Below the pieces are notes generated by a model that ran no database searches, was not told the DNA's origin, and worked only from the letters and a program-made list of their open reading frames with translations. From Clostridiales bacterium (GTDB lineage Bacteria; Bacillota; Clostridia; Oscillospirales; Oscillospiraceae), in contig JAAVHX010000004.1 in assembly GCA_014799475.1 (NCBI GenBank), forward strand, positions 17,897 to 59,815: 41,919 nt of DNA, read 5' to 3'. Below are positions 3,444 to 34,704 of the stretch, in pieces (the first letter of the stretch is position 1; each line of letters starts with the position of its first letter). Position numbers and translations under genes: made by a program.

Positions 3444-3638
3444 GTGACGCGTCAATTCTGCTTACCTTGTTTCCTTGAACTGAAAAAGGCCGGGAAACAC
3501 AACATTCAGCGCGTCGGCGGCGGGGTCAATATGAAGATCACGTGCTGGAAGTGCAAGCGCCGCCGGTACGGGGCAGACTATGAGATTTCCCGGAAGATCG
3601 GGGAAAACGAAAGAGGGACAAGCAATGCCGAAATATGA
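3444..3638 (+). CDS. Small cysteine-rich protein
   Basis: A 64-residue protein with a GTG start at 3444; GGGGGTGAG at 3432-3440 can serve as ribosome-binding site. It has two CxxC pairs, CLPC (residues 6-9) and CWKC (about 34-37), a typical four-cysteine zinc site. It overlaps the following HAD-like gene by 14 nt. The function is unknown. Confidence 0.55.
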   Translation: MTRQFCLPCFLELKKAGKHNIQRVGGGVNMKITCWKCKRRRYGADYEISRKIGENERGTSNAEI

Positions 3639-4293
3639 ATTTGTCGCCGTCGATTTCGACGGGACCCTTTGCGCCGACGCTTTCCCGGAAGTGGGCGCGC
3701 CGAACCGGGCCGTCATTGCCTACGTGAAGCGGCTGGTGGCGGACGGGTCAAAAATCATCCTTCACACCAGCCGGGAGAACGGAACCCGGAAACTGCTTGA
3801 TGAAGCGGTGGCGTTCTGCGAGGAACAGGAAATTCCCCTGTATGCGGTCAATGAGAATCCGGGCAACCCGCACGCCGCAAAAATCGGCTTGAAGCCCTCC
3901 GACGGGCGCAAGGTGTACGCGGACCTTTACATTGACGACAAGGCCATAAACCCGGCGGAAATCGAAAGAACGGCGGAATATGAAAGGCCGGGGGCATTCG
4001 TGCCGCCGCCGGAAGCCGCCGCCGCGGATGACCGCTGGGAAGAGATCATGAAGCAGGCGGAGCAATGCGGGTTCATCATTTACGCCGCGGCGGGGACGGC
4101 GATTCTTGCGACGAACAGGGTTCAGGCCAGCACGATGGGGGCGACAAGATACGCCGACATTCAGCGCATGAACGGACGTTGCCCGCAGGAAATCGGGTTG
4201 CCGGGTTGCCTTGACAGCTACACCGGGAAGCCGGGGTGCGCCGGGGACCGTTGCGAATTGTGGAAGCGGAGGGCCGACCATGCCGAACCGTGA
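3625..4293 (+). CDS. HAD-superfamily phosphatase-like protein
   Basis: A 222-residue protein starting at ATG 3625. The HAD motif I, DFDGTL, lies at residues about 10-15, and motif II is the ILHTSRENG stretch around 45-53 with Thr/Ser. A conserved Asp pair in DLYIDDKA (about 100-107) matches motif IV. Residues 1-115 therefore form a compact HAD domain like those of phage nucleotidases and polynucleotide-kinase phosphatases. The remaining ~105 residues are a separate domain with several cysteines (CPQEIGLPGC, CAGDRCELW) that may bind metal. A role in nucleotide or DNA-end metabolism during infection is an inference. Confidence 0.75.
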   Translation: MPKYEFVAVDFDGTLCADAFPEVGAPNRAVIAYVKRLVADGSKIILHTSRENGTRKLLDEAVAFCEEQEIPLYAVNENPGNPHAAKIGLKPSDGRKVYADLYIDDKAINPAEIERTAEYERPGAFVPPPEAAAADDRWEEIMKQAEQCGFIIYAAAGTAILATNRVQASTMGATRYADIQRMNGRCPQEIGLPGCLDSYTGKPGCAGDRCELWKRRADHAEP

Positions 4294-4567: not shown

Positions 4568-5407
4568 ATGAAGAAACTTGCGACATTGAAACCCGGTGCA
4601 TTCTTCTGTTACGGCGGCGTTCAGTGGGTGACGCTGGAGAATGACAAAGAGAACGGCGCGGCGCTGGTCATTTCCGCCGCCCCCGTGTTCAACGCGGCGT
4701 TCGACGACGACAACAAAAACGACTGGCGGGAATCGTCCGTGCGCGTGGAACTGAACGGCCCGTTCCTTGACAGACTGATTCAGGCGGGCGCGGACCCGGC
4801 GGCTTTCTTGGAATGGGAAAGCGACCTGACCGCCGACGACGGAATGACCGACTACGGGACCGCGACCGACAAAATCGCGTTGCTGTCCGACGGCCTGTAT
4901 CGGAAATTCCGGCAGTTTATCCCCGCCGTTGACGAATGGTGCTGGACCCTGACCCCGTGGACCTGTAAGCCGGAATATGCCGCTTTCGTCCGCAACGTCA
5001 GTTCCTCCGGCTCGCTGAACAACAACTACGCGTACAGCGGCCACTGGGGCGTTCGCCCGCTTTGCTATCTGAATTCTGAAATCTTGGTATCTGTCCCCTA
5101 CGAAGAGGAATGCGCGGACCCGCACGCCGACGCGGTGGAGGAAGCCCACAGCGCGATCATGTACGTTCTGGAACAGTACCCCACAGACGTATGGGGCGAC
5201 GCTATCGCCGCCGTGGTTGCTTCCCTCTTCCGGGCGAATCAGGACGCGGAGGAAATCGCGCAGGAAGAAGCGGCGGCGCGGGCGCTGAACGGTACGCCCG
5301 GCAAAAACAGCGTGAAGATCACGATTGAGGGGCAGGCCGCTTCCGCCGCGACAATCGTTGCAATGGTGGCGGACATGATCGAGAACAACGGGGGCAAAGA
5401 GGAATGA
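4568..5407 (+). CDS. DGR target protein 2 (DUF6273/C-type-lectin-like), early module
   Basis: A 279-residue protein; AAGGAGG lies 9 nt upstream of ATG 4568. Residues 1-175 look like a DUF6273-type formylglycine/C-lectin-like domain, ending in the DGR variable repeat (residues about 141-166, GVRPL motif) followed by SEILVS. The same end is found in the retroelement-proximal target at 26582-28297. It has no signal peptide or membrane segment and lies among early genes rather than tail genes. A helical, acidic region follows. Residues 255-273 (GQAASAATIVAMVADMIE) almost copy the active-site segment of the prohead protease at 9928-11079, including a 25-nt identical run. What it binds is unknown; its hypervariable surface suggests recognition of changing ligands. 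Confidence 0.8.
   Translation: MKKLATLKPGAFFCYGGVQWVTLENDKENGAALVISAAPVFNAAFDDDNKNDWRESSVRVELNGPFLDRLIQAGADPAAFLEWESDLTADDGMTDYGTATDKIALLSDGLYRKFRQFIPAVDEWCWTLTPWTCKPEYAAFVRNVSSSGSLNNNYAYSGHWGVRPLCYLNSEILVSVPYEEECADPHADAVEEAHSAIMYVLEQYPTDVWGDAIAAVVASLFRANQDAEEIAQEEAAARALNGTPGKNSVKITIEGQAASAATIVAMVADMIENNGGKEE
4987..5064 (+). repeat. DGR variable repeat 2 (VR2)
   Basis: 78 bp aligned without gaps to the template at 25146-25223. There are six differences, all at template adenines (A to G twice, A to T three times, A to C once), and none elsewhere. The repeat ends with the GC-rich GGGGCGTTCGCCCGCTTTG block shared with the template and VR1, the expected site for priming of mutagenic homing. It lies about 20 kb from the reverse transcriptase gene. 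Confidence 0.93.
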
Positions 5408-5610
5408 CGCGGAAAATTGATGTTAAATGCCCGTATTGCGGGCGGAAAGTCACGGTGGAGCATGACGGCCTTTACGCGGACGCGCATATTGCCACGTGCG
5501 ATTTCATGGACGGCGGGTGCGACAGAATGTTTGTCGCCGACGTTAAAGTTTCCATGACGGCCACGGCCCGGAAGATCGAGGGCGAAGCGGAAAAGGTGGC
5601 GGAGGGCTGA
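5404..5610 (+). CDS. Small zinc-ribbon protein
   Basis: A 68-residue protein coupled to the DGR target by an ATGA overlap. It carries CPYCGRKVTV (residues 9-18), then a histidine and two further cysteines in HIATCDFMDGGCDRMF (about 33-48). This is consistent with a zinc ribbon that could bind nucleic acid. It is the last gene before a 343-nt gap. The function is unknown. Confidence 0.65.
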   Translation: MTRKIDVKCPYCGRKVTVEHDGLYADAHIATCDFMDGGCDRMFVADVKVSMTATARKIEGEAEKVAEG

Positions 5611-5953: not shown

Positions 5954-6775
5954 GTGAAAAGCTTTATCAGGGAAAAAAAGATTTATTGCGGCGATCAGTA
6001 CAGAGAGGTTGATATATTCACCTACACCACGGCGCAAAAGACCGCCGCCAGCCGCGGGAAGCGGTCGAAGAAGGTTCAGGAATCGGAACCGAAACAAAAG
6101 AACCTGAACGACAAGAACGCCCGCCGGTATTTCGTCCAGTTGGGGAACCTGAATTTCGGGAGTGACCCGGACGCGTTGCACGTGACGGCTACATACAGCC
6201 CGAAACACCTTCCCCCATCCATAGAAGCCGCGGAAAAGGAAGTTTCAAACTACTTGCGCCGGGTGGCCTACGCCCGGAAGAAAGAGGGGTTGCCGCCCCT
6301 GAAATATATTCTTGTCACCGCCTACACCACAGCCCGGAACGGCGGGAAGCCCACCCGGATTCATCACCACATTGTCATAAATGGAGGGCTTGACCGTGAC
6401 ATTGTGGAAGAGTTGTGGCGCAAGCGGAAGCGCAAGGGGCAGAAAAAGGGTGATCGAATCGGGTATTGCAATGCCGACCGCCTGCAAGCGGACGGAAGCG
6501 GTATTGCCGCCCTTTGCAATTACCTTGTCAAGCAGGCCGGGGGAAAAAAGCGGTGGTCCTCTTCCCATAACTTGAAGAAGCCGACCAGCCGGGCAAACGA
6601 CGGGAAGTACACCCGGCGGCAGATCGAGAAATGGGCGAAAGAAAGGCCGGGCCGGGAATTTTGGGAAAAGAAATACCCCGGCTGGACCCTGACCGACGAT
6701 GATTACGGGGTTCGATACGAATATAACGCCCAAACGGGCTGGTCAATCTATCTGAAATTGAGAAAAAAGGAATAG
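5954..6775 (+). CDS. HUH-type rolling-circle replication initiator (Rep)
   Basis: A 273-residue protein with a GTG start at 5954; GAAAGAGGGTG provides the ribosome-binding site. The HUH metal-binding motif is seen at residues 136-140 (IHHHI), and the presumed nicking tyrosine follows in NYLVKQAGG (Tyr190, Lys193). The upstream LHVTATYSP strand (residues 75-83) fits motif 1. HUH endonucleases nick one strand and stay bound to the 5' end through tyrosine, starting rolling-circle replication. A basic C-terminal region could help DNA binding. Such Reps are typical of ssDNA phages and plasmids; in a tailed prophage it may start replication after excision or be an acquired plasmid function. The gap upstream may hold its origin. 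Confidence 0.8.
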   Translation: MKSFIREKKIYCGDQYREVDIFTYTTAQKTAASRGKRSKKVQESEPKQKNLNDKNARRYFVQLGNLNFGSDPDALHVTATYSPKHLPPSIEAAEKEVSNYLRRVAYARKKEGLPPLKYILVTAYTTARNGGKPTRIHHHIVINGGLDRDIVEELWRKRKRKGQKKGDRIGYCNADRLQADGSGIAALCNYLVKQAGGKKRWSSSHNLKKPTSRANDGKYTRRQIEKWAKERPGREFWEKKYPGWTLTDDDYGVRYEYNAQTGWSIYLKLRKKE

Positions 6776-6790
6776 AAAGGGGTGGTCATC

Positions 6791-7162
6791 GTGGGGAAGC
6801 CTTACCGGGAATGCCCGTTTTGCGGCGCGCATTTGGACGCGGGCGAAAGGTGCGATTGCCGGGAGCCGGAACGGAAACCCGCGGCGGCGGAGGAAAAGCC
6901 GGGGAAAATGCGGCTGGTTGCCATTTGCCGGGAAGTGAACGCGAAAACCGGGAACGTCGCCGTCTATCGGGTAGGGGAAGAAATGACGGACCGGACAATT
7001 TCGTTCTTGCAGGATTGGGCGCGAAACAACCCCGGATTCCGGTATTTCACGCTTACTTCAACCCGCTGGGAGCGGTTCGGGGCCGTGATAACGGGCATTT
7101 TGAAACGCCGGACAGTAACAGCCGCGGACGTGGACCGAATCGGCGGAATTGTGGAATTGTAG
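6791..7162 (+). CDS. Zinc-ribbon phage protein
   Basis: A protein of about 123 residues. The GTG at 6791 is preferred over 6782 because AGAAAGGGGTGG ends 6 nt before it. The N-terminus holds CPFCGAHLDAGERCDC, a four-cysteine zinc ribbon, followed by a Pro/Glu-rich linker and an alpha/beta domain of about 90 residues (MRLVAICREVNAKTGNVAVY). It is likely cytoplasmic. The function is unknown; its position between Rep and the Mom homolog suggests an early role. Confidence 0.6.
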   Translation: MGKPYRECPFCGAHLDAGERCDCREPERKPAAAEEKPGKMRLVAICREVNAKTGNVAVYRVGEEMTDRTISFLQDWARNNPGFRYFTLTSTRWERFGAVITGILKRRTVTAADVDRIGGIVEL

Positions 7163-7173
7163 GGGGATGGAAT

Positions 7174-7872
7174 GTGAATCCGTATATCATCGTAAAAATT
7201 CCGTCCTTGCGGGCGAAAGCCTATATTTGCGAACACCACTATTCGCACGGTTGCCACAATAGACCGTCACCGTGCTATGGACTGTATGACGGGGAAAACC
7301 TGATCGGCGTTTGTGCCTTTGCCACCCCGTGTAGTGAGCGGGTCCGGTCATCGGTATTCGGTGAGAAATACAAGGGCCATGTAACAGAGTTGCACAGACT
7401 TCACATTTTGGATTGCACACCGAAAAACACTGAAAGCTGGTTTATTTCCCGCTGTCTGAAACTGCTAAAACAGGAAAAACCGGATATTTGGGCCGTTATC
7501 AGCTTTTCAGACCTGACCGTTGGACACGTGGGGACGATCTACAAAGCGACGAACGCTTACAGGTTAGGGACGACACCGCCGCGGCGGTTCTTCATCGACG
7601 AAACGGGACGGTTGCGCCACCCGCGGCAATGCGGGCATAACATCACAACGGCGGAAGCCGCCGAAATGGGCTGGCGCGCTGAAATGCGGGAATCGAAAAA
7701 CCGGTATCTTTGGTTATTGCCGGACAGCAAGGGCCACAAGCGGCGGTTGCTGAAACTTTGCAAATATGACCTTCAAGGAGGGGGAAACATTGGACAGCGA
7801 ACAGGAATTGCAGGAAATGTACCGCGCGGCGGCAGTTATCAAGGAAATCTGCAACCGCCGGACAGAGGATGA
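7174..7872 (+). CDS. mom: Mom-like DNA-modification acyltransferase
   Basis: A 232-residue protein with a GTG start at 7174; AGGGGGATGG lies just upstream. Residues about 18-130 match the Mom family of phage Mu, a GNAT-fold enzyme that carbamoylates adenine in phage DNA so that host restriction enzymes cannot cut it. Visible family marks are EHHYSHGCHNRPSPCYGLYD with GENLIGVCAF, the ELHRLHILD strand, SWFISRCLKLL, and the block AVISFSDLTVGHVGTIYKAT (residues 107-126). The C-terminal ~25 residues overlap the next gene in another frame and may not be conserved. The likely role is anti-restriction. Confidence 0.8.
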   Translation: MNPYIIVKIPSLRAKAYICEHHYSHGCHNRPSPCYGLYDGENLIGVCAFATPCSERVRSSVFGEKYKGHVTELHRLHILDCTPKNTESWFISRCLKLLKQEKPDIWAVISFSDLTVGHVGTIYKATNAYRLGTTPPRRFFIDETGRLRHPRQCGHNITTAEAAEMGWRAEMRESKNRYLWLLPDSKGHKRRLLKLCKYDLQGGGNIGQRTGIAGNVPRGGSYQGNLQPPDRG

Positions 7873-7957: not shown

Positions 7958-8508
7958 CGGACCGAGAACAGCTTTTGCAGAAAGTCAAAAAGATTCAGGC
8001 TTTGGCGGAACGCGGCGACCGCGGGGAAAAGGAATCCGCCGCCGCCTTGCTTGAACGGCTGATGAAGCAACACGGAATCACCGAAACCGAACTTGAAGAG
8101 GACCGCCGAGAATTGGCGTGGTTCAGATTCAAAACCCCGCTTGAACGTCGGCTTTTGAATCAAATTATTTACGCTGTCACCGGGCGCATTGCTTCCGGGT
8201 GCGTTGGAAGGTACACGAACAGAACGCGAAAAATGCTGGGGATTGAATGCACGGCGGCGGAGCGGTTAGAAATCAAATTCAGCTTTGAATTTTACAACGC
8301 CGCCTTGAAAAAGGAACTTGAACGGTTCTATTCGGCTTTCGTGAACAAGAACGACATATTCCCGGAAAATGCGATTGACAAAATACCGGACACGGGGGAA
8401 ATCGACCTTGAAGAAGCCCAGCGTGTTTCGATGATGATGGAGGGCATGGAGGTACACACCCGCCGGAAAGCGTTGGGGAGCGGGGCGGACGAAAGGGGCG
8501 ATCAGTAA
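7954..8508 (+). CDS. DUF2786 domain protein
   Basis: A 184-residue protein starting at ATG 7954 (ATGA overlap). Residues about 5-45 match DUF2786: QKVKKIQALAERGDRGEKES, then AAALLERLMKQHGITETELE. The rest is an alpha-helical domain with a second conserved block around residues 65-130. DUF2786 proteins are common in phages and plasmids and often lie near replication or anti-restriction genes; their biochemical role is not settled. It is directly followed by the RecU-portal fusion, with stop and start overlapping (TAATG). Confidence 0.75.
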   Translation: MTDREQLLQKVKKIQALAERGDRGEKESAAALLERLMKQHGITETELEEDRRELAWFRFKTPLERRLLNQIIYAVTGRIASGCVGRYTNRTRKMLGIECTAAERLEIKFSFEFYNAALKKELERFYSAFVNKNDIFPENAIDKIPDTGEIDLEEAQRVSMMMEGMEVHTRRKALGSGADERGDQ

Positions 8509-9968
8509 TGCCCACGCAATGGGAATCGAAATACCTTGCCCAGCGTTATCAAAACGCCGTGAACAACGCGCAAGGTCATTCTTTCGAGGAATACATAAAG
8601 GACGCGTGCGCCCTGTATTCACGGCAAGGCCGGGCGGAGATCGAGAAAACCCCCGAACCCTTCCGCGTGCTGGAGAAGTTGCGCGACGGGATTTTTAAGG
8701 GACGGTTCACAGCCCCGGCCCAGCCGGATTTTCAAGGGACCTTGGACGGCGGGCGCTCCATCGTCTTTGAAGCAAAGTACACCACGACGGACCGGTTGAA
8801 ACGGGACGTTCTGACCGGCGAACAGCAGGACGCGCTGGACAATTTTTACGAACTGCAACAGCTTGCCTTTTTGAATTGGCTTATGTCCGGCGACGTTATC
8901 GCAACATTGCCCGTCACGCGGCGGGTGAATATGCCCTATGACCTCCGAATTTGCCTGATCGAAGCGGACAGGTTGAGCAACCCGGACGGAGACACCGGCG
9001 ACCCGCACATTGTCGGCGGCGTGGAAACAAACGACGCGGGGGAGGTTGTCGCATACCATATCAGCAAACACCACCCCTTGTCCTATGACCTGACCGAAAC
9101 GGGCTGGACGCGGGTGGAAGCATGGGGAGCAAAGACCGGGCGGCGGAACGTGCTTCACATCATGAACCGGGAAAGAATCGGACAGCGGCGCGGCGTGCCG
9201 TTCCTTGCACCGGTTATTGAAGCCCTGAAACAGTTGGGGCGCTATACCGACGCGGAACTTGTCGCCGCCGTTGTTTCTGGAATGTTTACCGTGTTCATCG
9301 AAAAGGAATCCGCGTCCAGTGAAGGGGCGTTCGGCGAGATCATACCGGAAGAAGAACAGGTGGACGCAGGCGACGACGGAACGATTGAACTTGCGCCCGG
9401 CGCTATTGTGGACCTGAACGAAGGGGAAAAGGCGCACGACATGAACCCCGGCAGGCCGAACACGGCCTTTGAAGGGTTTGTGATTGCGATTTGTCGGCAG
9501 ATCGGCGCGGCCCTTGAAATCCCCTATGAACTGCTGGTGAAGTGCTTCAATTCGTCATTCACAGCTTCCCGCGGCGCGCTTTTGGAAGCGTGGAAAATGT
9601 TTCGTATGTACCGGACATGGCTTGCAAATGATTTCTGCCAGCCCATTTATGAAGAGTGGTTCGCGGAAGCCGTCGCAAAGGGAAGAATCCCCGCGCCCGG
9701 CTTTTTTGCTGACCCGATCATTCGCAAGGCGTACTTGTCGGCGGAATGGAACGGTCCGGCGCAAGGGCTTTTGAACCCGGTTCAGGAAGTAGAAGCGGCG
9801 GAAAAACGGGTTATAAACGGCTTTTCGACCCGTGACCGTGAAGCTATGGAAATGAACGGGTCCGACTTCTACCGTAACGCCGCACAGCGGAAGAGGGAAG
9901 AAAAAATGTTAAGGGAGGTAAACGAAGATGGCGGACAAGAACCCCGTACAGGGGAAGCCGGTCAATAA
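8508..9968 (+). CDS. RecU-type resolvase N-terminus fused in frame to phage portal protein
   Basis: A 486-residue protein made of two unrelated parts. Residues about 20-110 are the front of a RecU/resolvase-like nuclease: GHSFEEYI, the KTPEPF and GRFTAPAQPDFQG blocks (Asp74) and the IVFEAKYTT motif (Glu88, Lys90). From about residue 112 (DNFYELQQLAFLNWLMSGDV) it becomes a lambda-type portal protein (Phage_portal_2), including CLIEADRLSNP, the NSSFTASRGALLEAWK helix and a typical basic C-terminus. The portal's usual first ~110-150 residues are missing, as are the end of RecU and any terminase. A deletion joining recU to portal around 8830-8865 is the simplest explanation. A working portal is doubtful. 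Confidence 0.85.
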   Translation: MPTQWESKYLAQRYQNAVNNAQGHSFEEYIKDACALYSRQGRAEIEKTPEPFRVLEKLRDGIFKGRFTAPAQPDFQGTLDGGRSIVFEAKYTTTDRLKRDVLTGEQQDALDNFYELQQLAFLNWLMSGDVIATLPVTRRVNMPYDLRICLIEADRLSNPDGDTGDPHIVGGVETNDAGEVVAYHISKHHPLSYDLTETGWTRVEAWGAKTGRRNVLHIMNRERIGQRRGVPFLAPVIEALKQLGRYTDAELVAAVVSGMFTVFIEKESASSEGAFGEIIPEEEQVDAGDDGTIELAPGAIVDLNEGEKAHDMNPGRPNTAFEGFVIAICRQIGAALEIPYELLVKCFNSSFTASRGALLEAWKMFRMYRTWLANDFCQPIYEEWFAEAVAKGRIPAPGFFADPIIRKAYLSAEWNGPAQGLLNPVQEVEAAEKRVINGFSTRDREAMEMNGSDFYRNAAQRKREEKMLREVNEDGGQEPRTGEAGQ

Positions 9969-11079
9969 GCACTTTTGGAAATTCTGCAACGCCGCGGAAG
10001 AAGGAAAACCGCCCGAACTGATTTTAGAGGGCGACATTTCTTCCACAACGTGGTGGGGCGACGAAGTAACCCCGCGACTGTTTACGGAGGAATTGAATGC
10101 GCTGGGGAGCGTGCCCGAAATCGTCGTGCGAATCAACAGCGGCGGCGGCGACGTGTTCGCGGCAAATGCTATTTATACCCGGCTGAAAGACAATGCGGCG
10201 AAAATCACGGTGAAGATCGACGGCTGGGCCGCGTCCGCCGCGACAATCGTTGCAATGGCGGGCGACGTGATCGAGATTCCGGGAAACGGCGTGTTTATGG
10301 TCCATGACCCGAAAATGGGCGCAATGGGCTATTTCAGCGCGGAGGAATTCACAAAGGCCGCGGAAGAACTGAAAGTGATTAAGCAGGCAATTATAAACGG
10401 CTATGCCCTGAAAACCGGCAAATCGGCGGAGGAAATTTCCGCGATCATGTCGGCGGAAACATGGTACGACGGAAAACAGGCCGTCGAAGCCGGATTCTGC
10501 GACAAGCTTATGTTTGAGGACGCGAAAACAACCGTTGAAAACATGGGAAAAGTTGTTGTCAACAGTGTTTCGATGGACCTTGAACGCTTCCCGAATATGT
10601 CTGTTTCGTTGTTAAACCGCCTGACGGCCAGCGCGTCCGGCGGTTTTTCAAATACACATACAACACCAAAAATCACCGAAAAGGAGCGAAAGACAATGGG
10701 ACCTGAAAACAAAGAGATCAAGAATCCCGCGGACCTGAAAGCGGCCTTTCCCGATTTGGTAAAGCAGATCGAGGACGCGGCGACCACCGCGGAGCGCAAG
10801 CGCATTCAGGACATCGAGGGCGTGGCGCTTGCGGGCTTTGAAAAGATCGTGAACGCCGCAAAGTTTGACAACCCCGTTTCCGCCGGGGACGTTGCGACGC
10901 AGATTGTCGCGGAGCAGAAGAAGCAGGCGGCGGGCTATATCGCCGACCGGAACGCCGACGCACAGGACAGCGGCGCGGGCGACGTGGGAACGGGCAAGAT
11001 CGAGGGCGCGGCTGGCGGCGGCGGAGGTCAAAGCGAGATCGACGCGGCGATTGACCGGCTTTTCCCTGAAACGAAGTAA
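9928..11079 (+). CDS. ClpP-like prohead protease with C-terminal scaffold region
   Basis: A 383-residue protein; ATG 9928 overlaps the portal gene by 41 nt and has GGGAGGT upstream. Residues about 30-200 form a ClpP-type serine protease: INSGGGDVFAANAIYTRL, the nucleophile Ser103 in WAASAATIVAMAGD and His126 in VFMVHDPKMG. The C-terminal half is low-complexity and charged, ending in a glycine-rich stretch and a short helix. This matches fused protease-scaffold proteins that shape and mature the lambda-like capsid. A 57-nt stretch coding for the active-site segment recurs, slightly changed, at the end of the DGR target at 4568-5407. Confidence 0.9.
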   Translation: MADKNPVQGKPVNKHFWKFCNAAEEGKPPELILEGDISSTTWWGDEVTPRLFTEELNALGSVPEIVVRINSGGGDVFAANAIYTRLKDNAAKITVKIDGWAASAATIVAMAGDVIEIPGNGVFMVHDPKMGAMGYFSAEEFTKAAEELKVIKQAIINGYALKTGKSAEEISAIMSAETWYDGKQAVEAGFCDKLMFEDAKTTVENMGKVVVNSVSMDLERFPNMSVSLLNRLTASASGGFSNTHTTPKITEKERKTMGPENKEIKNPADLKAAFPDLVKQIEDAATTAERKRIQDIEGVALAGFEKIVNAAKFDNPVSAGDVATQIVAEQKKQAAGYIADRNADAQDSGAGDVGTGKIEGAAGGGGGQSEIDAAIDRLFPETK

Positions 11080-11432: not shown

Positions 11433-12488
11433 ATGGCTATTGAAACCGACATTTACACCCCGCGCACGTTAGGGAAGCTGGTTCGGCGCACGCCCCCGGT
11501 AAGAACCTTTTTCCGCGATACGTTCTTTAAGAACCGCAAAACCTTTGTGACGAAGAGCGTTGACGTGGACTTTAAGAAGGGCAAACGCGCCCTTGCGCCG
11601 TTCGTCCACCCGAAAATCGGCGGCAAAACCGTTCCGAACAGCGGCTATCAGACGAAGAGTTACACCCCCGTTCTTCTTGCGCCGAACAAGGTGACGACTG
11701 TTGACGATCTGCTGGAGCGGGCCGCAGGCGAAAACCCGTACAGCGGCAGAAAGCCCGCAGACCGCGCCGTTGAAAAGCTGGCGGAGGATTTGAAGGAACT
11801 GAAAGAAATGATTGCCCGCCGGGAAGAGTGGATGGCGGCGACCTCCATTTTCACCGGCAAGATTCCCATTATCGGCGAGGGGCTGGACGAAGAAATCGAC
11901 TTTGAATTTGAAAACGTCGAAATCATCGTAACGGACGCGCTGAAATGGAGCGCCCCGACCTCCGACCCGCTGGCCGACTTGGAACGGTGGCGGACCACGG
12001 TTCAGAAAAACGGGTTCGTGAACTGCGATATTTGCGTTATGGCGGCGGACGTTGCAAACGCGTTTGTCAACCATCCGAAGGTAAAGGAAGTTTGCGACAC
12101 GAAAGCTTATGATTTGGCGGTCATCAAGCCCCGCGAACTTCCGAACGGCCTTACATACGTTGGGACCATTCACAAGCTGGGGCTGGATATTTACCAGTAT
12201 AACGAATGGTATCTTGACGACTGGACCAACCCGGAAGCGCCGGACGAATACCCGATTGTTCCCGACGGTGCGCTGGCGCTTTTGAGTACGCGGGCCGACT
12301 ATTCGATCTACTACGGCGGCATTACCATGATTCCCGAAGAGGGAAAGGGCTTTGTCACCGTGGAGGGCGATATGGTCCCGCAAACGTGGGTGGAGCGCCG
12401 CCCGGACCGCCGCTTTTTGCAGATCAACAGCAAACCGCTGACCGTGCCGCATGAGGTCAATAGCTGGTTTGTCGCCCACGTCCTGTAA
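11433..12488 (+). CDS. Major capsid protein (lambda gpE type)
   Basis: A 351-residue protein; ATG 11433 has GGGAGG upstream. The sequence follows the lambda gpE family: an N-terminal TFFRDTFFKNRKTFVTKSVD strand, VDFKKGKRALAPFVHP, a QTKSYTPVLLAPNKVTTVDD block and the late DRRFLQINSKPLTVPHEV segment. The HK97 fold is expected. It lies after protease and decoration genes and is followed, with stop and start overlapping, by head-tail joining genes. The length is normal for the family. Confidence 0.9.
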   Translation: MAIETDIYTPRTLGKLVRRTPPVRTFFRDTFFKNRKTFVTKSVDVDFKKGKRALAPFVHPKIGGKTVPNSGYQTKSYTPVLLAPNKVTTVDDLLERAAGENPYSGRKPADRAVEKLAEDLKELKEMIARREEWMAATSIFTGKIPIIGEGLDEEIDFEFENVEIIVTDALKWSAPTSDPLADLERWRTTVQKNGFVNCDICVMAADVANAFVNHPKVKEVCDTKAYDLAVIKPRELPNGLTYVGTIHKLGLDIYQYNEWYLDDWTNPEAPDEYPIVPDGALALLSTRADYSIYYGGITMIPEEGKGFVTVEGDMVPQTWVERRPDRRFLQINSKPLTVPHEVNSWFVAHVL

Positions 12489-24567: not shown

Positions 24568-24714
24568 ACCGTCACAGAACACGGGTTCACCTTTGAGGGC
24601 GACCCGGCGGAGGTTGCGAAAATCCGTGAAAGGCGGTGCTTGCAATGGGCTACCCACAACGCAACGGGGAGAAATACCAGCCCCGGAATGGGGAGCAAAG
24701 CGAATTTATCTTGA
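24520..24714 (+). CDS. Possible small protein upstream of the Avd-like gene
   Basis: A 64-codon open frame starting at GTG 24520, inside the nested stem-loop. It overlaps the Avd-like gene by 70 nt and has no convincing ribosome-binding site. The peptide starts with TISGTTYTGNRAVLTVTEHG and is not recognised. It may be a real small tail-region protein or only an open frame across structured RNA. Confidence 0.3.
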   Translation: MLTISGTTYTGNRAVLTVTEHGFTFEGDPAEVAKIRERRCLQWATHNATGRNTSPGMGSKANLS

Positions 24715-25094
24715 TTACAAAGGCGAAAGACCTTGTAAAGCACACGTATATGATGACCGGCGAAAAGCGGTTTCCGAAAAAGCATTATAAGCTTGTTCAA
24801 CGTCTGCAAGATACCACGATTGAGATTTTCGAGCGGGTGCAGGAAGCGAACGAACTTGATCTTTCAGACCCGCAGGAATTCAGGGAACGGCAATACGATC
24901 AGAAAAAAGCAATGACGAAATGCAAAACCGTTCTGTTCCTGATCGAAATTGCCCTTGAACGCGGCATGATTTCAAAAAGTCAATGCGATACATGGACAAA
25001 TTACGTCGTCGAGGTAAAGCGGATGACCGCAAGCTGGAAGAAGAAGGACCGGGAACGGGCCACAGCACAATGGAGAAACGCGCCGCCCCGGTAA
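24645..25094 (+). CDS. avd: DGR accessory variability determinant-like protein (Avd)
   Basis: A 149-residue protein. ATG 24645 is preferred, with AAAGGCGG 8-15 nt upstream. It is basic and almost wholly helical: FILITKAKDLVKHTYMMTGE, FPKKHYKLVQRLQDTTIEIF, then long helices to the C-terminus. This matches the four-helix-bundle (S23/Avd) family. Avd forms a pentamer that binds the reverse transcriptase and template RNA and is required for mutagenic homing. Its position directly upstream of the template repeat and reverse transcriptase supports the call. Confidence 0.85.
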   Translation: MGYPQRNGEKYQPRNGEQSEFILITKAKDLVKHTYMMTGEKRFPKKHYKLVQRLQDTTIEIFERVQEANELDLSDPQEFRERQYDQKKAMTKCKTVLFLIEIALERGMISKSQCDTWTNYVVEVKRMTASWKKKDRERATAQWRNAPPR

Positions 25095-25128: not shown

Positions 25129-25223
25129 GCGTCGAATTCGTACAACGTCCGCAACGTCAATTCCTCCGGCACGCTGAACAACAACAACGCGTACAACGGC
25201 AACAGGGGCGTTCGCCCGCTTTG
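25129..25223 (+). repeat. DGR template repeat (TR)
   Basis: 95 bp lying between avd and the reverse transcriptase gene, outside any likely gene. It aligns without gaps to VR1 (27242-27336) and, from 25146, to VR2 (4987-5064). It carries 24 adenines, mostly in ten in-frame AAC/AAT codons, the arrangement that gives widest amino-acid diversity when A is mutated. In the target frame it would read SSGTLNNNNAYNGNRGVRPL and then meets a stop codon after the repeat. The GC-rich end GGGGCGTTCGCCCGCTTTG is unchanged in all three copies. Confidence 0.95.
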
Positions 25224-25463
25224 GTGGAATACCGCGATTGAGTAAGCCGAAAGGCCGAAAACAGAGGACCACTATCAAAGGAAGGTATATCCCGCCGCCG
25301 TGGTGAGAGCGCGACGGTAAATACAAGATTGGTGGAGCAAGGCCCACGGGAACCAGCTTCCGCCCCGCGGCGGGCGCGCTACGGGGTCCGATGATGACGC
25401 GTTGAACGGTGATCTTTGCCGGACAGCAACGCTGATTCTATGCACGGCAAGGAGTTTCCTTTT
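25224..25463 (+). ncRNA. DGR spacer RNA region between TR and reverse transcriptase
   Basis: These 240 nt hold no convincing gene. In studied DGRs the RNA just downstream of the template binds Avd and reverse transcriptase and primes cDNA synthesis, so this stretch is expected to be part of the functional template RNA. Short GC-rich pairings are visible (for example GCCGAAAGGC near 25247). The end of the RNA cannot be set from sequence alone. Confidence 0.6.
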
Positions 25464-26582
25464 ATGGAACAAACAAGCGATTTTCAAAGGGTGTACGATT
25501 TCGGGAACCTTTACACGGCGTTCCTGAAAGCCCGCAGAGGGAAGCGGGACAAACCCAGCGTTGCAAAGTTTGAAGCGAATTTGCTGGAAGCCCTTTCCCT
25601 TTTATCTGAATTGCTGAAAACCAAAAAATACCGTATGTCGGAATATTTCGTTTTCCGGGTGTATGAACCTAAAGAACGAATTGTGATGACAAACGCGTTC
25701 AAAGACAAGGTTGTTCAGCACTCTTTATGTGACAATGTTTTAGAACCCGCATTTACAGGCAGTTTCATTCGTGACAACTACGCTTCACAACGCGGGCGCG
25801 GGACCCATGACGGCCTTTACCGATTGGAAGGTTTCATGCGGTCCTATTATTTTTCCCGAAAAGCGCGGGCGGAGGAAGAAAGCCGGGAGGAGGGGTTGCC
25901 GCGGCTTTCGCCCGCCGAATGCGCCGACGGATGGGTTTTGAAATGCGATATTTCAAAATACTTCTATTCGATACGGCATGAGCCATTAAAGAAAATGGTC
26001 CGGCGATACATCAAGGACCCGGACGTTTTGTGGCTGATTGACTTAATCATTGACAGCACGCCGGACCCCGGAATTCCTATCGGCAATCAGACTTCACAAT
26101 GGTTCGCCGTCATGTACCTTTCGGGGTTAGATCACTTTATCAAAGAAAAGCTGGGTATCAAGTATTACGGGCGATACATGGACGATTTCTTTTTGATTCA
26201 TGAGGACAAGGCGTACTTGCAGTATTGCTGGAAAGAGATTGAAAAGTATGTTTCCGAACTTGGGCTTTCTTTGAACAATAAAACGAACATTTTCCCGTTG
26301 CGGAACGGTATTGATTTCCTTGGATTCCATACATATTTGACCGAAACGGGCAAGGTGATTCGGAAAGTAAGGAGGTCGAGCAAGAGCAATGAACAAAAGA
26401 AGCTAAAGAAACAGCGGGCTTTGTTGGACCGCGGGAAAATCACCTTGAAACAGGTTGAACAATCCTACGGAAGCTGGCGGAGCCACGCGGAAAAGGGCAA
26501 CTGCTATCACCTTATCCGGGACATGGACGAACTTTGTATGAATCTATTCCCGGAAATCTATTCAAAGGAGAGTGCGGCATAA
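25464..26582 (+). CDS. DGR reverse transcriptase
   Basis: A 372-residue protein. ATG 25464 is chosen because AAGGAG (25449-25454) lies 9 nt upstream. Reverse transcriptase motifs occur in order: VLKCDISKYF (residues 158-167, first catalytic Asp162), the DGR-type IGNQTSQ (206-212, in place of the QGxxxSP of group II intron enzymes), the catalytic GRYMDDFF (236-243), and IDFLGF (283-288). There is no maturase or integrase domain, as expected for DGRs. The enzyme copies the template RNA with errors at adenines, and the cDNA replaces the variable repeats. The next gene starts on the overlapping TAATG. Confidence 0.94.
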   Translation: MEQTSDFQRVYDFGNLYTAFLKARRGKRDKPSVAKFEANLLEALSLLSELLKTKKYRMSEYFVFRVYEPKERIVMTNAFKDKVVQHSLCDNVLEPAFTGSFIRDNYASQRGRGTHDGLYRLEGFMRSYYFSRKARAEEESREEGLPRLSPAECADGWVLKCDISKYFYSIRHEPLKKMVRRYIKDPDVLWLIDLIIDSTPDPGIPIGNQTSQWFAVMYLSGLDHFIKEKLGIKYYGRYMDDFFLIHEDKAYLQYCWKEIEKYVSELGLSLNNKTNIFPLRNGIDFLGFHTYLTETGKVIRKVRRSSKSNEQKKLKKQRALLDRGKITLKQVEQSYGSWRSHAEKGNCYHLIRDMDELCMNLFPEIYSKESAA

Positions 26583-28297
26583 TGGCAAAAGCACTTAGCA
26601 CGCTGGCCGTCGGCGCGCTTATCAAGGACACCGGAACACTTTACAACGGAAAGCCCATTGTCTGGAAGATTGCTGACAAGAACCACGCGGGCTATCCTGC
26701 GAATTCCGTGACCCTGATTACGGAACGCATTATTTCGCTGAAATGCTTTGACGCTATCGAGAGCGGCAACACCGACAGCAACCGGCGTTCTTACGGCAAT
26801 AACCGCTGGATTTTCTCGAATGTCCGGCAATGGCTGAACAGTCAAGCCGCGGCGGGCAAATGGTACAGCGCACAGCACAGCGCCGACGCGCCGCCCACAA
26901 AAGCGAACAGCGCCGGTTATAACGGCTATGACACGAAACCGGGATTCCTTGCGGGATTCTCCGCGTCCTTCCTTGCGGCATTGCTGGACACGACGCACAC
27001 CGTCGGCAAGGCAAGCGTGGACGGCGGCGGAACGGAAACTTGCACCGACAAAATCTTTTTCGCCACCTGTACGGAAGTGGGCTTGACCGGCGACGCGACG
27101 TGCGGCACAAAGCTGGCCTTGTTCAGCGATAACAATTCCCGGCTGGCAAAGCCGACCGCGGAAGCCGTAAGCGAAAGCGATTACACGAACAGCAGTTTCA
27201 ATGCTAATTCTAATTGGTATTGGTGGCTGGCGGACGCTTATGCGTCGGATTCGTACGGCGTCCGCAGCGTCTATTCCTCCGGCGCGCTGAGCGACGCCAG
27301 CGCGTACTACGGCTACTGGGGCGTTCGCCCGCTTTGTAATCTTAAATCTGAAATCTTGGTATCTGATACCACGGATTCGGACGGCGCATATACGATTATC
27401 TGGAATCGCGCCCCGTCCGCGCCCGGCAGTATCAACGTACCGGCGCAGGTTTTGAGCGAACAGAATGTGACCGTCACGTGGGGCGTGTCCACGGATGAGG
27501 ACGGAAGCGTTTCCGGGTACACGCTGGAACGGAAGGTGAACGACGAAAGCTGGGCGCAGATTTACAAGGGAATCAACCGGACCTATACCGATACCGCGGG
27601 CGCGACATGGCAAACGGTGGCGTATAGGGTCAAAGCCTACGACAACGCGGGCGCGGATTCCGAATACACCACCAGCCCGGCGCGGGCCGTGGTCCACAAT
27701 ACGCCGCCCGCGATCAGCGGCACAAATACGAATCTCGGAGAGAAAACCGGGGCGTTTGCGCAGGCGTACACCGTGACGGACATTGACGGCGGGCAAACCC
27801 TGACCGTAACGGAAAAGATCGACGACACCGTGAAGCGGTCCCACACTGTCACCAGCGGGCAGGAATATTCCTTCAACGTGACGGCGGAAGAATGGGTGAA
27901 GCTTTCCAACGGGTCCCACACCCTGACGATCACCGCGGACGACGGGACCGGCGGAACTGCCACCCGGACATACACGTTCAGCAAAAACGTTTCGGAAATC
28001 GAATTTCAGCTTGCGACCCCGCTGGCGACCGACGACGCGGTTACAAAGGCAATTATGAGCGTCGCCCGGCAGATTCCCGCGGGGGCCGAATTCACCGTTG
28101 AAGCCTGCAACAACGGCAACGACGCTTCCCCCACGTGGGAGGACGTGACGCAGGCCGTCACCAGCGGAAGCAAATTCTTTTTCAGCAACACCACAAAGAC
28201 AGCCGCCGAATGGGGCTTTAACTTCCGTATCAAGGTAAAGCGGAACGGGGCCATCGGCGACTGTTTCATTTCGTCCGTGGGAGGTAATTTTGAATGA
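26582..28297 (+). CDS. DGR target protein 1, phage tail/fiber protein with C-lectin-like, Fn3 and Ig-like domains
   Basis: A 571-residue protein; ATG 26582 has AAAGGAG upstream. Residues 1-265 are a DUF6273/C-type-lectin-like domain with WIFSNVRQWLNS and WYWWLADAYASDSYGVR. It ends in variable repeat 1 (residues 221-252, GVRPL) and SEILVS. An Fn3-like domain (about 280-375: PSAPGSINVPAQVLSEQNVT), an Ig-like domain (about 380-470) and a last beta-rich domain follow. It has no signal peptide, as expected for a virion protein. Its place after the baseplate genes and beside the retroelement points to a receptor-binding tail protein with DGR-variable binding surface. Confidence 0.9.
   Translation: MAKALSTLAVGALIKDTGTLYNGKPIVWKIADKNHAGYPANSVTLITERIISLKCFDAIESGNTDSNRRSYGNNRWIFSNVRQWLNSQAAAGKWYSAQHSADAPPTKANSAGYNGYDTKPGFLAGFSASFLAALLDTTHTVGKASVDGGGTETCTDKIFFATCTEVGLTGDATCGTKLALFSDNNSRLAKPTAEAVSESDYTNSSFNANSNWYWWLADAYASDSYGVRSVYSSGALSDASAYYGYWGVRPLCNLKSEILVSDTTDSDGAYTIIWNRAPSAPGSINVPAQVLSEQNVTVTWGVSTDEDGSVSGYTLERKVNDESWAQIYKGINRTYTDTAGATWQTVAYRVKAYDNAGADSEYTTSPARAVVHNTPPAISGTNTNLGEKTGAFAQAYTVTDIDGGQTLTVTEKIDDTVKRSHTVTSGQEYSFNVTAEEWVKLSNGSHTLTITADDGTGGTATRTYTFSKNVSEIEFQLATPLATDDAVTKAIMSVARQIPAGAEFTVEACNNGNDASPTWEDVTQAVTSGSKFFFSNTTKTAAEWGFNFRIKVKRNGAIGDCFISSVGGNFE
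27242..27336 (+). repeat. DGR variable repeat 1 (VR1)
   Basis: 95 bp aligned without gaps to the template at 25129-25223. There are fourteen differences, all at template adenines (14 of 24): mostly A to G, four A to T, one A to C. No other template base differs. This is the diagnostic pattern of adenine-specific retrohoming. Confidence 0.96.
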
Positions 28298-32877: not shown

Positions 32878-32889
32878 GTGCAATATTTC

Positions 32890-32922
32890 ATACTTGCGTG
32901 AGTATCAAAAAGATGATATAAT
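32890..32922 (+). promoter_or_regulatory. Rightward promoter with operator O3
   Basis: TTGCGT (32894-32899) and TATAAT (32917-32922) are 17 bp apart. The -35 box lies within ATACTTGCGTGAGTAT (32890-32905). The same 16 bp occur, unchanged, at the transposase promoter (34620-34635). It drives the RHH gene at 32954. Confidence 0.78.
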
Positions 32923-32953
32923 CAGGAAGCAAACAAAAAAGGAGGGGCTGGGC

Positions 32954-34610: not shown

Positions 34611-34619
34611 TCGGAATTT

Positions 34620-34652
34620 ATACTTGCGTGAGTATGAATAAAATGTTATACT
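34620..34652 (+). promoter_or_regulatory. Transposase promoter with phage operator O4
   Basis: TTGCGT (34624-34629) and TATACT (34647-34652) are 17 bp apart. The -35 box lies within ATACTTGCGTGAGTAT (34620-34635), identical base for base to operator O3 of the RHH gene 1.7 kb upstream. The transposase should therefore be switched by the same protein. Confidence 0.78.
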
Positions 34653-34671
34653 CTCCATGTCGAAAAAACAG

Positions 34672-34704
34672 GAACCCGCCCTTGCCTTGCGGCGGGGCGG
34701 GTTC
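34672..34704 (+). promoter_or_regulatory. Leader hairpin before the transposase gene
   Basis: GAACCCGCCC and GGGCGGGTTC form a perfect 10-bp stem with a 13-nt loop in the 5' leader, just before the ribosome-binding site GGAGGG (34714-34719). It may act as an attenuator or block read-through translation, a known way of keeping transposase levels low. Confidence 0.5.

Follow-up and report, generated by a model that had tools for sequence, protein, structure and literature searches.

The gene at 4568-5407 of the DNA shown above raises the question of whether one DGR can rewrite two proteins of the same phage, one encoded just after the DGR itself and the other some 20 kb away among the early genes, and, if so, what a diversified protein encoded in such a position might be for. 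The whole stretch of prophage-bearing DNA that was analysed, 41,919 nucleotides in length, is called the window in what follows, and the features needed at the outset are these:

4568-5407, + strand: tgt2, the second DGR target, 279 aa, DUF6273/C-lectin-like (phrog_9958, E 4.7e-64, residues 2-184)
4987-5064, + strand: VR2, the remote variable repeat, 6/78 differences from the TR, all at TR adenines
24636-25094, + strand: avd accessory gene (phrog_3206 'Avd protein of DGR', E 1.2e-26; NCBIfam DivGenRetAVD, E 5.6e-7, below cut-off)
25129-25223, + strand: TR, the template repeat (25129-25223 matches VR1, 25146-25223 matches VR2)
25416-26582, + strand: DGR reverse transcriptase (RT) gene (RVT_1, E 1.3e-12; phrog_1423, E 3.6e-136)
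26534-28297, + strand: tgt1, the first target gene, tentaclin/Hoc-like (phrog_10993, E 2.4e-228; DUF6273, E 4.1e-31; Big_9, E 0.0015, below cut-off)
27242-27336, + strand: VR1, 14/24 TR adenines changed over 95 bp and nothing else changed

Three copies of the 78-bp repeat occur in the assembly (2.08 Mb in 46 contigs, about 87% complete), with no further copy at E 0.001. The one at 25146-25223 can be identified as the template because all differences from both other copies sit at its adenines; it is intergenic, with avd on one side and the RT gene on the other. VR2 lies 20.2 kb upstream, so that the separation of about 20 kb given in the initial annotation stands, as do its coordinates and its count of six differences over 78 bp, all at adenines. 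Six of the 19 TR adenines are changed and nothing else is; the chance of the adenine placement alone is 1.06e-4, the match itself having E = 7.8e-27 in the assembly. Read from the sequence, these changes alter six residues (N-S, T-S, N-Y, N-S, N-H and R-W). The RT carries the motifs IGNQTSQ, which we take to be the SQ motif and a sign of a DGR-type RT, and YMDD; its matches in NCBIfam were to other RTs only, all below cut-off with group II best, and the match of Avd to bAvd in Pfam was also below cut-off. An RT beside a TR and avd, repeats that differ from the TR only at its adenines, and an Avd-type accessory protein together make the locus a DGR. No Rfam family matched within the window at gathering scores.

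The first target, tgt1, follows just after the RT gene (with an in-frame ATG at 26582), and its product is probably a surface adhesin on the virion, a tentaclin; phrog_10993 is labelled 'Hoc-like', and the Ig-like matches fall below cut-off. For tgt2 there were no Ig matches, so that the Ig-like domain by which a tentaclin would be recognised was not found. Its family, phrog_9958, is one without assigned function, and the homology spans the single DUF6273-like domain of tgt2, whose match to DUF6273 at the VR (E 9.2e-5, 22.8 bits) lies just under the cut-off of 23.5; in 8 of 10 relatives scanned the match is above it. The C-lectin fold of the related target2 proteins of phages nd4 and nd12 is a structural model of Baykov 2023 (PMC10743442). 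A search of solved structures gave a single match, to the IgA protease chain 9qa6 (E 3.1e-6). Hydropathy gave no membrane segment in the tgt2 product, nor any segment of membrane-level hydrophobicity in 20 out of 20 tgt2 proteins examined, of the 24 described below (hydropathy maximum <=1.57); the earlier statement that the protein has no signal peptide holds on the same footing, signal peptides having been judged by hydropathy only. In the Pfam scan, which covered eleven members of the family, no Ig or other attachment domain and no known defence domain were matched. Because there is neither a membrane segment nor an attachment domain, a cytoplasmic binder made early is the simplest reading of the gene.

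Whole-gene dN/dS for tgt2 is 0.40-0.49 against its closest relatives, in genomes G368, G714 and G110. Its final 40 or so residues, with a 62-bp ClpP-like piece, are peculiar to the window copy, and this extension is missing from those three relatives. A similar helix-like C-terminal motif (DDLLxEI or NELIAEI) ends several tgt2 proteins (L057:11505-12152, L060:36624-37271, L054:3948-4559, L046:1027-1608 and L108:9465-10112); in the 11 stretches searched it occurs at the end of no other ORF. The surroundings of tgt2 in the window, with the added segment at its own C-terminus, are as follows:

3580-4293, + strand: HAD-like early gene, 237 aa (phrog_1238 'phosphoheptose isomerase', E 4.5e-29)
5323-5384, + strand: ClpP-like segment at the tgt2 C-terminus, 84% identical to the ClpP-like prohead protease gene at 10215-10276
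5404-5610, + strand: zinc-ribbon-like early gene, 68 aa, overlapping the end of tgt2 (weak zinc-ribbon matches only)
5954-6775, + strand: Rep gene of the early module (phrog_3584, replication initiation, E 8.1e-83; REP_ORF2-G2P, E 3.6e-7)
6811-7872, + strand: ORF with a Mom-like DNA modification protein, residues 121-320 (phrog_1384, E 1.4e-48)

The order downstream of tgt2 is therefore zinc-ribbon-like gene, Rep and Mom-like gene. Where the initial annotation had spoken of zinc-ribbon and HAD-like neighbours, the former description survives on weak matches, and the latter comes from the DFDGT motif of the 237-aa protein, which we take to be HAD-like and for which Pfam gave no match; the gene is conserved upstream of tgt2 in G110, G368 and G714. 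Further downstream, an ORF at 8508-9968 joins a resolvase (residues 4-111) to a portal protein (from residue 110 onward). In the relative G714 about 11.2 kb lie between the two, a stretch missing from the window prophage (or from its assembly), which is why the portal ORF starts just 3.1 kb past tgt2 in the window; a prophage without some 11 kb may have a DGR of its own that is idle. Elsewhere in the window, two copies of a 57-nt element, 74% alike (32887-32943 and 34617-34673) and with the palindrome ATACTTGCGTGAGTAT, are perhaps operators in the prophage control region.

Recombination scars of this kind (the ClpP-like tail and the resolvase-portal joint) could be taken to suggest that VR2 itself is a chimera of assembly or a recent recombination product in a single assembly. 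The probability of this is nevertheless practically negligible, as the same arrangement is shared by Brigit, Toutatis and Lelie, which are phages of cultured Faecalibacterium, by nd4 and nd12, and by another 18 systems from genomes.

The genomes searched comprised overlapping sets of 199, 400 and 394, together with a phage collection. Fifty of the 199 matched phrog_9958, mostly weakly, and stretches were taken from the window's own genome and from G037, G063, G108, G110, G119, G172 and G176. The sets of 400 and 394 gave 31 profile matches at E 1e-15 or better, a lower bound in that scoring covered only part of the first-look candidates in each genome. Eighteen of the 31 have, at a distance from the tgt2 gene, a TR whose differences are adenine-specific, and three more distant homologues adjoin their TR (G176 twice, and G293), as does another such homologue, L071. 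The remaining ten (G368:C33, G236, G348, G385, G240, G108, G119, G228, G501 and G760) had no TR in the stretches examined, G240 and G228 lying on contigs of less than 10 kb and G501 outside the stretches taken. Since the genomes G236, G240, G119 and G760, all with a tgt2 homologue, contain no relative of the window RT at E 0.001, tgt2 can persist without a DGR. Among phages, tblastn of the collection yielded 13 records, of which MT839794, MT839055, MT839962 and Moorella phage MCACPph1 were left out of the TR examination; in the fragments MT836645 and MT836117 no TR was found. A search of IMG/VR with the window tgt2 protein gave no relative, and single queries with the nd4 and Toutatis proteins gave 10 and 2 loci respectively, none of these 12 having a TR in its own stretch except L071, where it adjoins the gene.

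There are thus 24 remote systems (the 18 genome matches, G037, nd4, nd12, Toutatis, Lelie and Brigit), and the check in related prophages that the initial annotation had proposed therefore shows the arrangement not to be peculiar to the window. Across these 24, VR2 and TR mismatch at 237 adenines and at 3 other positions (there being 563 adenines in 2029 sites), a ratio that is inflated, partly by construction, because the finder penalises non-adenine mismatches. TR and VR2 share a contig or phage genome in 17 of the 24, and in 14 of those 17 the TR lies 18-41 kb downstream of VR2, with both on one strand. For nd4, nd12 and Lelie it lies 12-16 kb before VR2 in the deposited record; the nd4 and Lelie records begin at terminase genes, which suggests a different rotation of a circular map. 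The other seven systems have TR and VR2 on separate contigs, and here the two were matched up by how well they fit; contigs C2 and C6 of G110 are taken as one prophage because of synteny with G714. Individual cases include Lelie, where VR2 has 15 of 33 TR adenines changed and one other position, Brigit, with its TR at L061:21411-21483 and an early VR2 at L054:4373-4445, Toutatis, with a tgt2 VR at 11932-12032, and G110, a single genome with four VR2 genes bearing different repeats. Three of the 24 (G405, G644 and G729) have a stop codon within the profile match, the frame through VR2 being open in G405 and G644. The hosts of the genome systems span four families of one order. A nearly identical prophage (L102-L104 of G714; L039, L040 and L043 of G110) was found in genomes assigned to two bacterial families, which reflects either a broad host range or a binning error. 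Judged from the repeats, then, an RT/Avd cassette by the tail genes copies its TR, with adenine-specific changes, both into VR1 and into a remote VR2, and does so recurrently in the 24 systems.

Whether VR2 is rewritten at the present time can be judged best from close relatives, in two comparisons that are unaffected by the adenine bias of the finder. The prophages of G714 and G110 have blocks 94.2-98.5% identical and identical TRs; their copies of VR2 disagree at 9 of 21 TR-adenine sites and at 0 of 67 other sites, as against 9/400 and 2/259 differences in the adjoining coding sequence. For nd4 and L062, scored with the TR of nd4, the differences number 12/21 at TR adenines, 1/56 at other sites and 8/628 outside. 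Five further relatives of nd4 show 9-14 of 21, 1-4 of 56, and 38/628 to 142/613 respectively. The phage's own TR was the best or tied fit to VR2 in all 20 systems tested, ties occurring only between identical TRs, and for G063 and Brigit every foreign TR gives at least 8 non-adenine mismatches. The part of tgt2 outside VR2 is subject to purifying selection, with dN/dS values of 0.18-0.53 over five nd4 comparisons. The early remark that VR2 is less changed than VR1 applies in the window (6 changes against 11 over the same 78 bp) and also more widely, VR2 having fewer changes in 14 of 20 pairs, as many in 3 and more in 3 (sign test ~0.013). No read variation was observed at the VRs of Lelie under the conditions used by Gulyaeva 2024 (PMC11792537), which for that one phage speaks against present activity. 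As far as close relatives can tell us, VR2 would appear to be one that continues to be rewritten.

How a gene so far from the cassette comes to be a target may be connected with the sequence that follows the two variable repeats:

5065-5093, + strand: 3' flank of VR2, 29 nt, resembling tgt1 and absent beside the TR
27337-27365, + strand: 3' flank of VR1, counterpart of 5065-5093

Over 20 systems, when the 30 nt after the VR are compared for the two targets of one phage, the mean likeness is 0.72, against 0.57 between phages (0 of 5000 permutations reach the same-phage value) and 0.37 for random sequence; background values are seen in the following 30 nt (0.42), in an equal length upstream (0.39) and in the TR flank (0.35). 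Without sliding the likeness is uneven, ranging from 25/30 nt in the window to 10, 13 and 14 in G405, G037 and G172. Residues of the flank that tgt1 and tgt2 share are encoded by the same codon 91 times out of 104 when positions within the TR are left out (18 systems, G644 and G405 being omitted because of framing); a broader count, which includes TR-overlapping codons and one misframed system, gives 121 of 142 where codon usage predicts 48. Such counts overstate the evidence because related systems are not independent. A rare codon recurs here too, serine TCT in 30 of 36 cases at one position, its usage being 6-15% in the systems that have it. The flank would seem to be either read as DNA by the DGR or exchanged between tgt1 and tgt2, and the abruptness with which the likeness stops, at about 30 nt, speaks for the first of these; the flank is therefore put forward as a candidate target-recognition element and, as such, would offer a handle on how a DGR chooses distant targets. 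BPP-1 reportedly has a hairpin near its VR. A similar feature was considered here and rejected, stems of at least 6 bp occurring in just 4 of 20 VR1 and 2 of 21 VR2 flanks.

It might be argued that tgt2 plays no part of its own and, as a paralogue of the tentaclin head, has simply retained its VR and is rewritten without benefit. The VR and flank common to tgt1 and tgt2 are what such a paralogue would show, for 10 of the 31 homologues the examined stretches contain no TR, and 15 of 54 nd4-like genomes do without the second target (Baykov 2023, PMC10743442, in the part consulted). However, the gene is linked with clearly different TRs (the VR2s of G063 and Brigit fit no other TR), it is under purifying selection outside the VR, and its flank is matched to the tgt1 of its own phage, all of which makes an idle role very improbable.

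The position of tgt2 was examined through its neighbours, taken as five ORFs per side where available (some of them spurious), which were compared with reference sets of 90 structural-module and 54 early-module ORFs from five of the same phages, self-matches being removed. Among the 193 ORFs so collected from 20 systems, none matched structural modules and 39, from 15 of the 20 systems, matched early modules, whereas a control set of 126 ORFs in the vicinity of VR1 genes (ranks -8 to -4 and +1, +2, the DGR cassette being left out) gave 50 with matches to structural modules and none with matches to early ones. In Brigit, tgt2 comes after two helix-turn-helix genes and before an exonuclease, RecT and a replisome organiser; in Toutatis it is upstream of a replication initiator and antiterminator Q; and in nd4 it precedes a gene annotated as the DNA polymerase III alpha subunit. 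When 117 neighbours were compared with Pfam and PHROGs, replication initiators, exonucleases, DNA methyltransferases and pyrophosphatases were among the commonest families, and no head or tail family appeared among the best 25 of 34 and of 140 families; three neighbours matched SLT transglycosylase or endolysin families. Somewhat further out, ORFs 6-8 places from tgt2 included matches to RecU, SSB, ERF and RusA, and also to one terminase and, in the window itself, to the portal and the ClpP-like protease. Judged by the company it keeps, tgt2 evidently sits in the early/replication module, as the initial annotation had placed it (before Rep and far from the tail genes), and a place beside the tail genes, such as would be expected of an Mtd-like receptor-binding protein, was not seen in relatives in any of the 20 systems.

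It must be said that an early position does not prove absence from virions, and the principal alternative is that tgt2 is a second receptor-binding or decoration protein on the virion despite its early gene, which is the view of Baykov 2023 (PMC10743442), where it is compared with Mtd. It does belong to the domain family of the tentaclin, with the same TR and a corresponding variable stretch; furthermore, the only phage DGR studied experimentally, that of BPP-1, acts on a tail protein (Benler 2021, PMC8008677), and the viral targets of three DGR clades were annotated mostly as tail proteins (Roux 2021), each of these papers being cited for the parts consulted. Nonetheless, there is neither an Ig nor another attachment domain, none of the 193 neighbours is structural, the position in Brigit is within an early operon, and Lar-like and DUF3310 domains are found in frame with the gene, so that a place on the virion must be considered unlikely, though it deserves to be taken seriously.

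These in-frame domains occur in two of the 11 members scanned with Pfam. In member L041 an N-terminal Lar restriction-alleviation domain was matched at E 4.1e-8, above the Pfam cut-off, yet in NCBIfam it reached 33.7 of the 39.6 bits required; in the nd12 member the N-terminal domain is DUF3310 (E 2.5e-16). In both cases the domain and tgt2 share one open frame, from which the product would be either a fused protein or one made from an internal start. The Lar domain, and the Mom-like gene near tgt2 in the window, are possible links with anti-defence. The neighbourhood as a whole does not single out counter-defence, because DNA methyltransferase matches are not enriched near tgt2 (8 of 117, against 5 of 79 among ORFs 6-8 places away, among the families listed). 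A small membrane protein beside tgt2 was considered as a partner and dropped (6/21 against a background of 112/670, p 0.12).

One further possibility is that tgt2 protects the lysogen or infected cell, by binding a component of an incoming phage inside the cell, the DGR keeping pace with rival phages. The prophage setting would suit this, as would the four VR2 genes with different repeats in G110, and DGR-diversified putative antigen sensors have been reported in multicellular bacteria (PMC10907252, in the part consulted). On the other hand, tgt2 lies in the early/replication module and not among lysogenic genes, no known defence domain was matched in the 11 proteins, and the membrane partner is unenriched; protection is accordingly regarded as distinctly improbable.

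The explanation that we favour, at somewhat better than even probability, is that two proteins of a single temperate phage are rewritten by one DGR, that tgt2 is early, cytoplasmic and non-virion and binds an intracellular partner, and that the flank marks the targets. An early-module DGR target, probably cytoplasmic, is as a whole well supported by the sequence comparisons. Under the proposed mechanism tgt2 would be made early and stay in the cytoplasm, not becoming a virion component; its variable face would bind an intracellular partner that varies with the host, a target of host defence or of takeover being most likely; the DGR would let the phage population sample tgt2 binders upon meeting new hosts; and the roughly 30 nt of DNA 3' of both VRs probably serve to identify a target gene to the DGR at any location. 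That tgt2 encounters host defence is something we infer. A bolder version, according to which temperate phages of this bacterial order aim their DGR at the cell interior, an early cytoplasmic tgt2 being retargeted, over successive phage generations, at host proteins (such as restriction or other defence factors) while the same TR retargets the adhesin and a portable 3' flank enlists genes, is possible and on balance doubtful. Phage DGRs are mostly understood as host-range machines for virion surfaces; a conserved second target among the replication genes would mean that phages also bear the cost of targeted hypermutation for a protein at work within the cell.

In comparing these results with known systems, published work is taken from the parts of each paper that were consulted. 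Target2 of nd4 and nd12 (Baykov 2023, PMC10743442) belongs to the same family as tgt2 (40.6% and 45.9% identity by tblastn) and, as in the window, is paired with a tentaclin, a single TR serving both. That paper reports adenine variation in VR2, notes the DUF3310-like N-terminus of nd12, and finds both targets in only 39 of 54 nd4-like genomes, a lone target always being the tentaclin; it reads target2 as an Mtd-like receptor binder and treats both targets as parts of one cassette, and in its Results and Discussion the early location is not discussed, the words 'early' and 'intracellular' having 0 occurrences each. In Lelie/CP11 of Faecalibacterium (Gulyaeva 2024, PMC11792537), Lelie being one of the 24 systems and reportedly active in Faecalibacterium sp., there is likewise a small DUF6273 target, and CP11-like genomes vary at both VRs; the function of the small target is called 'not entirely clear', and the text consulted contains no statement of an early-module location, which the maps of its Fig. 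4 may nevertheless show. The DGRs of Brigit and Toutatis were already reported by Cornuault 2018 (PMC5883640), where the target of Brigit is given as Hoc-like; because only this one target is given, the early VR of Brigit is additional, while the Toutatis target described there as without assignable function may be the same as the tgt2 VR at 11932-12032.

A comparable case is ORF 84 of the Quimbyviridae (Benler 2021, PMC8008677), a second C-lectin target far from the structural module and near methyltransferases, which was proposed to be non-structural, situated near counter-defence genes and engaged in phage-host conflict. The Quimbyviridae differ from the window phage in being Bacteroides phages with ORF 84 on the opposite strand, and ORF 84 is likened to tgt2 by description only, no record named Quimbyvirus being among the 13 phage matches by tblastn. 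Cyanobacterial remote variable proteins (Vallota-Eastman 2020, PMC7517822) resemble the window in that remote VRs are fed by one TR, and intracellular signalling domains were proposed for them; they differ in being cellular and not of phage, with C-lectin joined to kinases and similar domains. Surveys restricted to the vicinity of the RT would miss remote targets such as tgt2; Roux 2021, in the part consulted, says of its own method that remote targets would escape it. The two-target DGR of tentaclin and small DUF6273 protein is thus already published (Baykov 2023; Gulyaeva 2024), and the suggestion in the initial annotation of a new use of a DGR was too strong, a non-structural second target having also been proposed (Benler 2021). 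What appear to be novel, within the open-access literature searched (preprints apart), are the systematic early location of the second target, an additional VR in Brigit, the Lar domain in one member, and the matched flank by which the two targets of one phage resemble each other.
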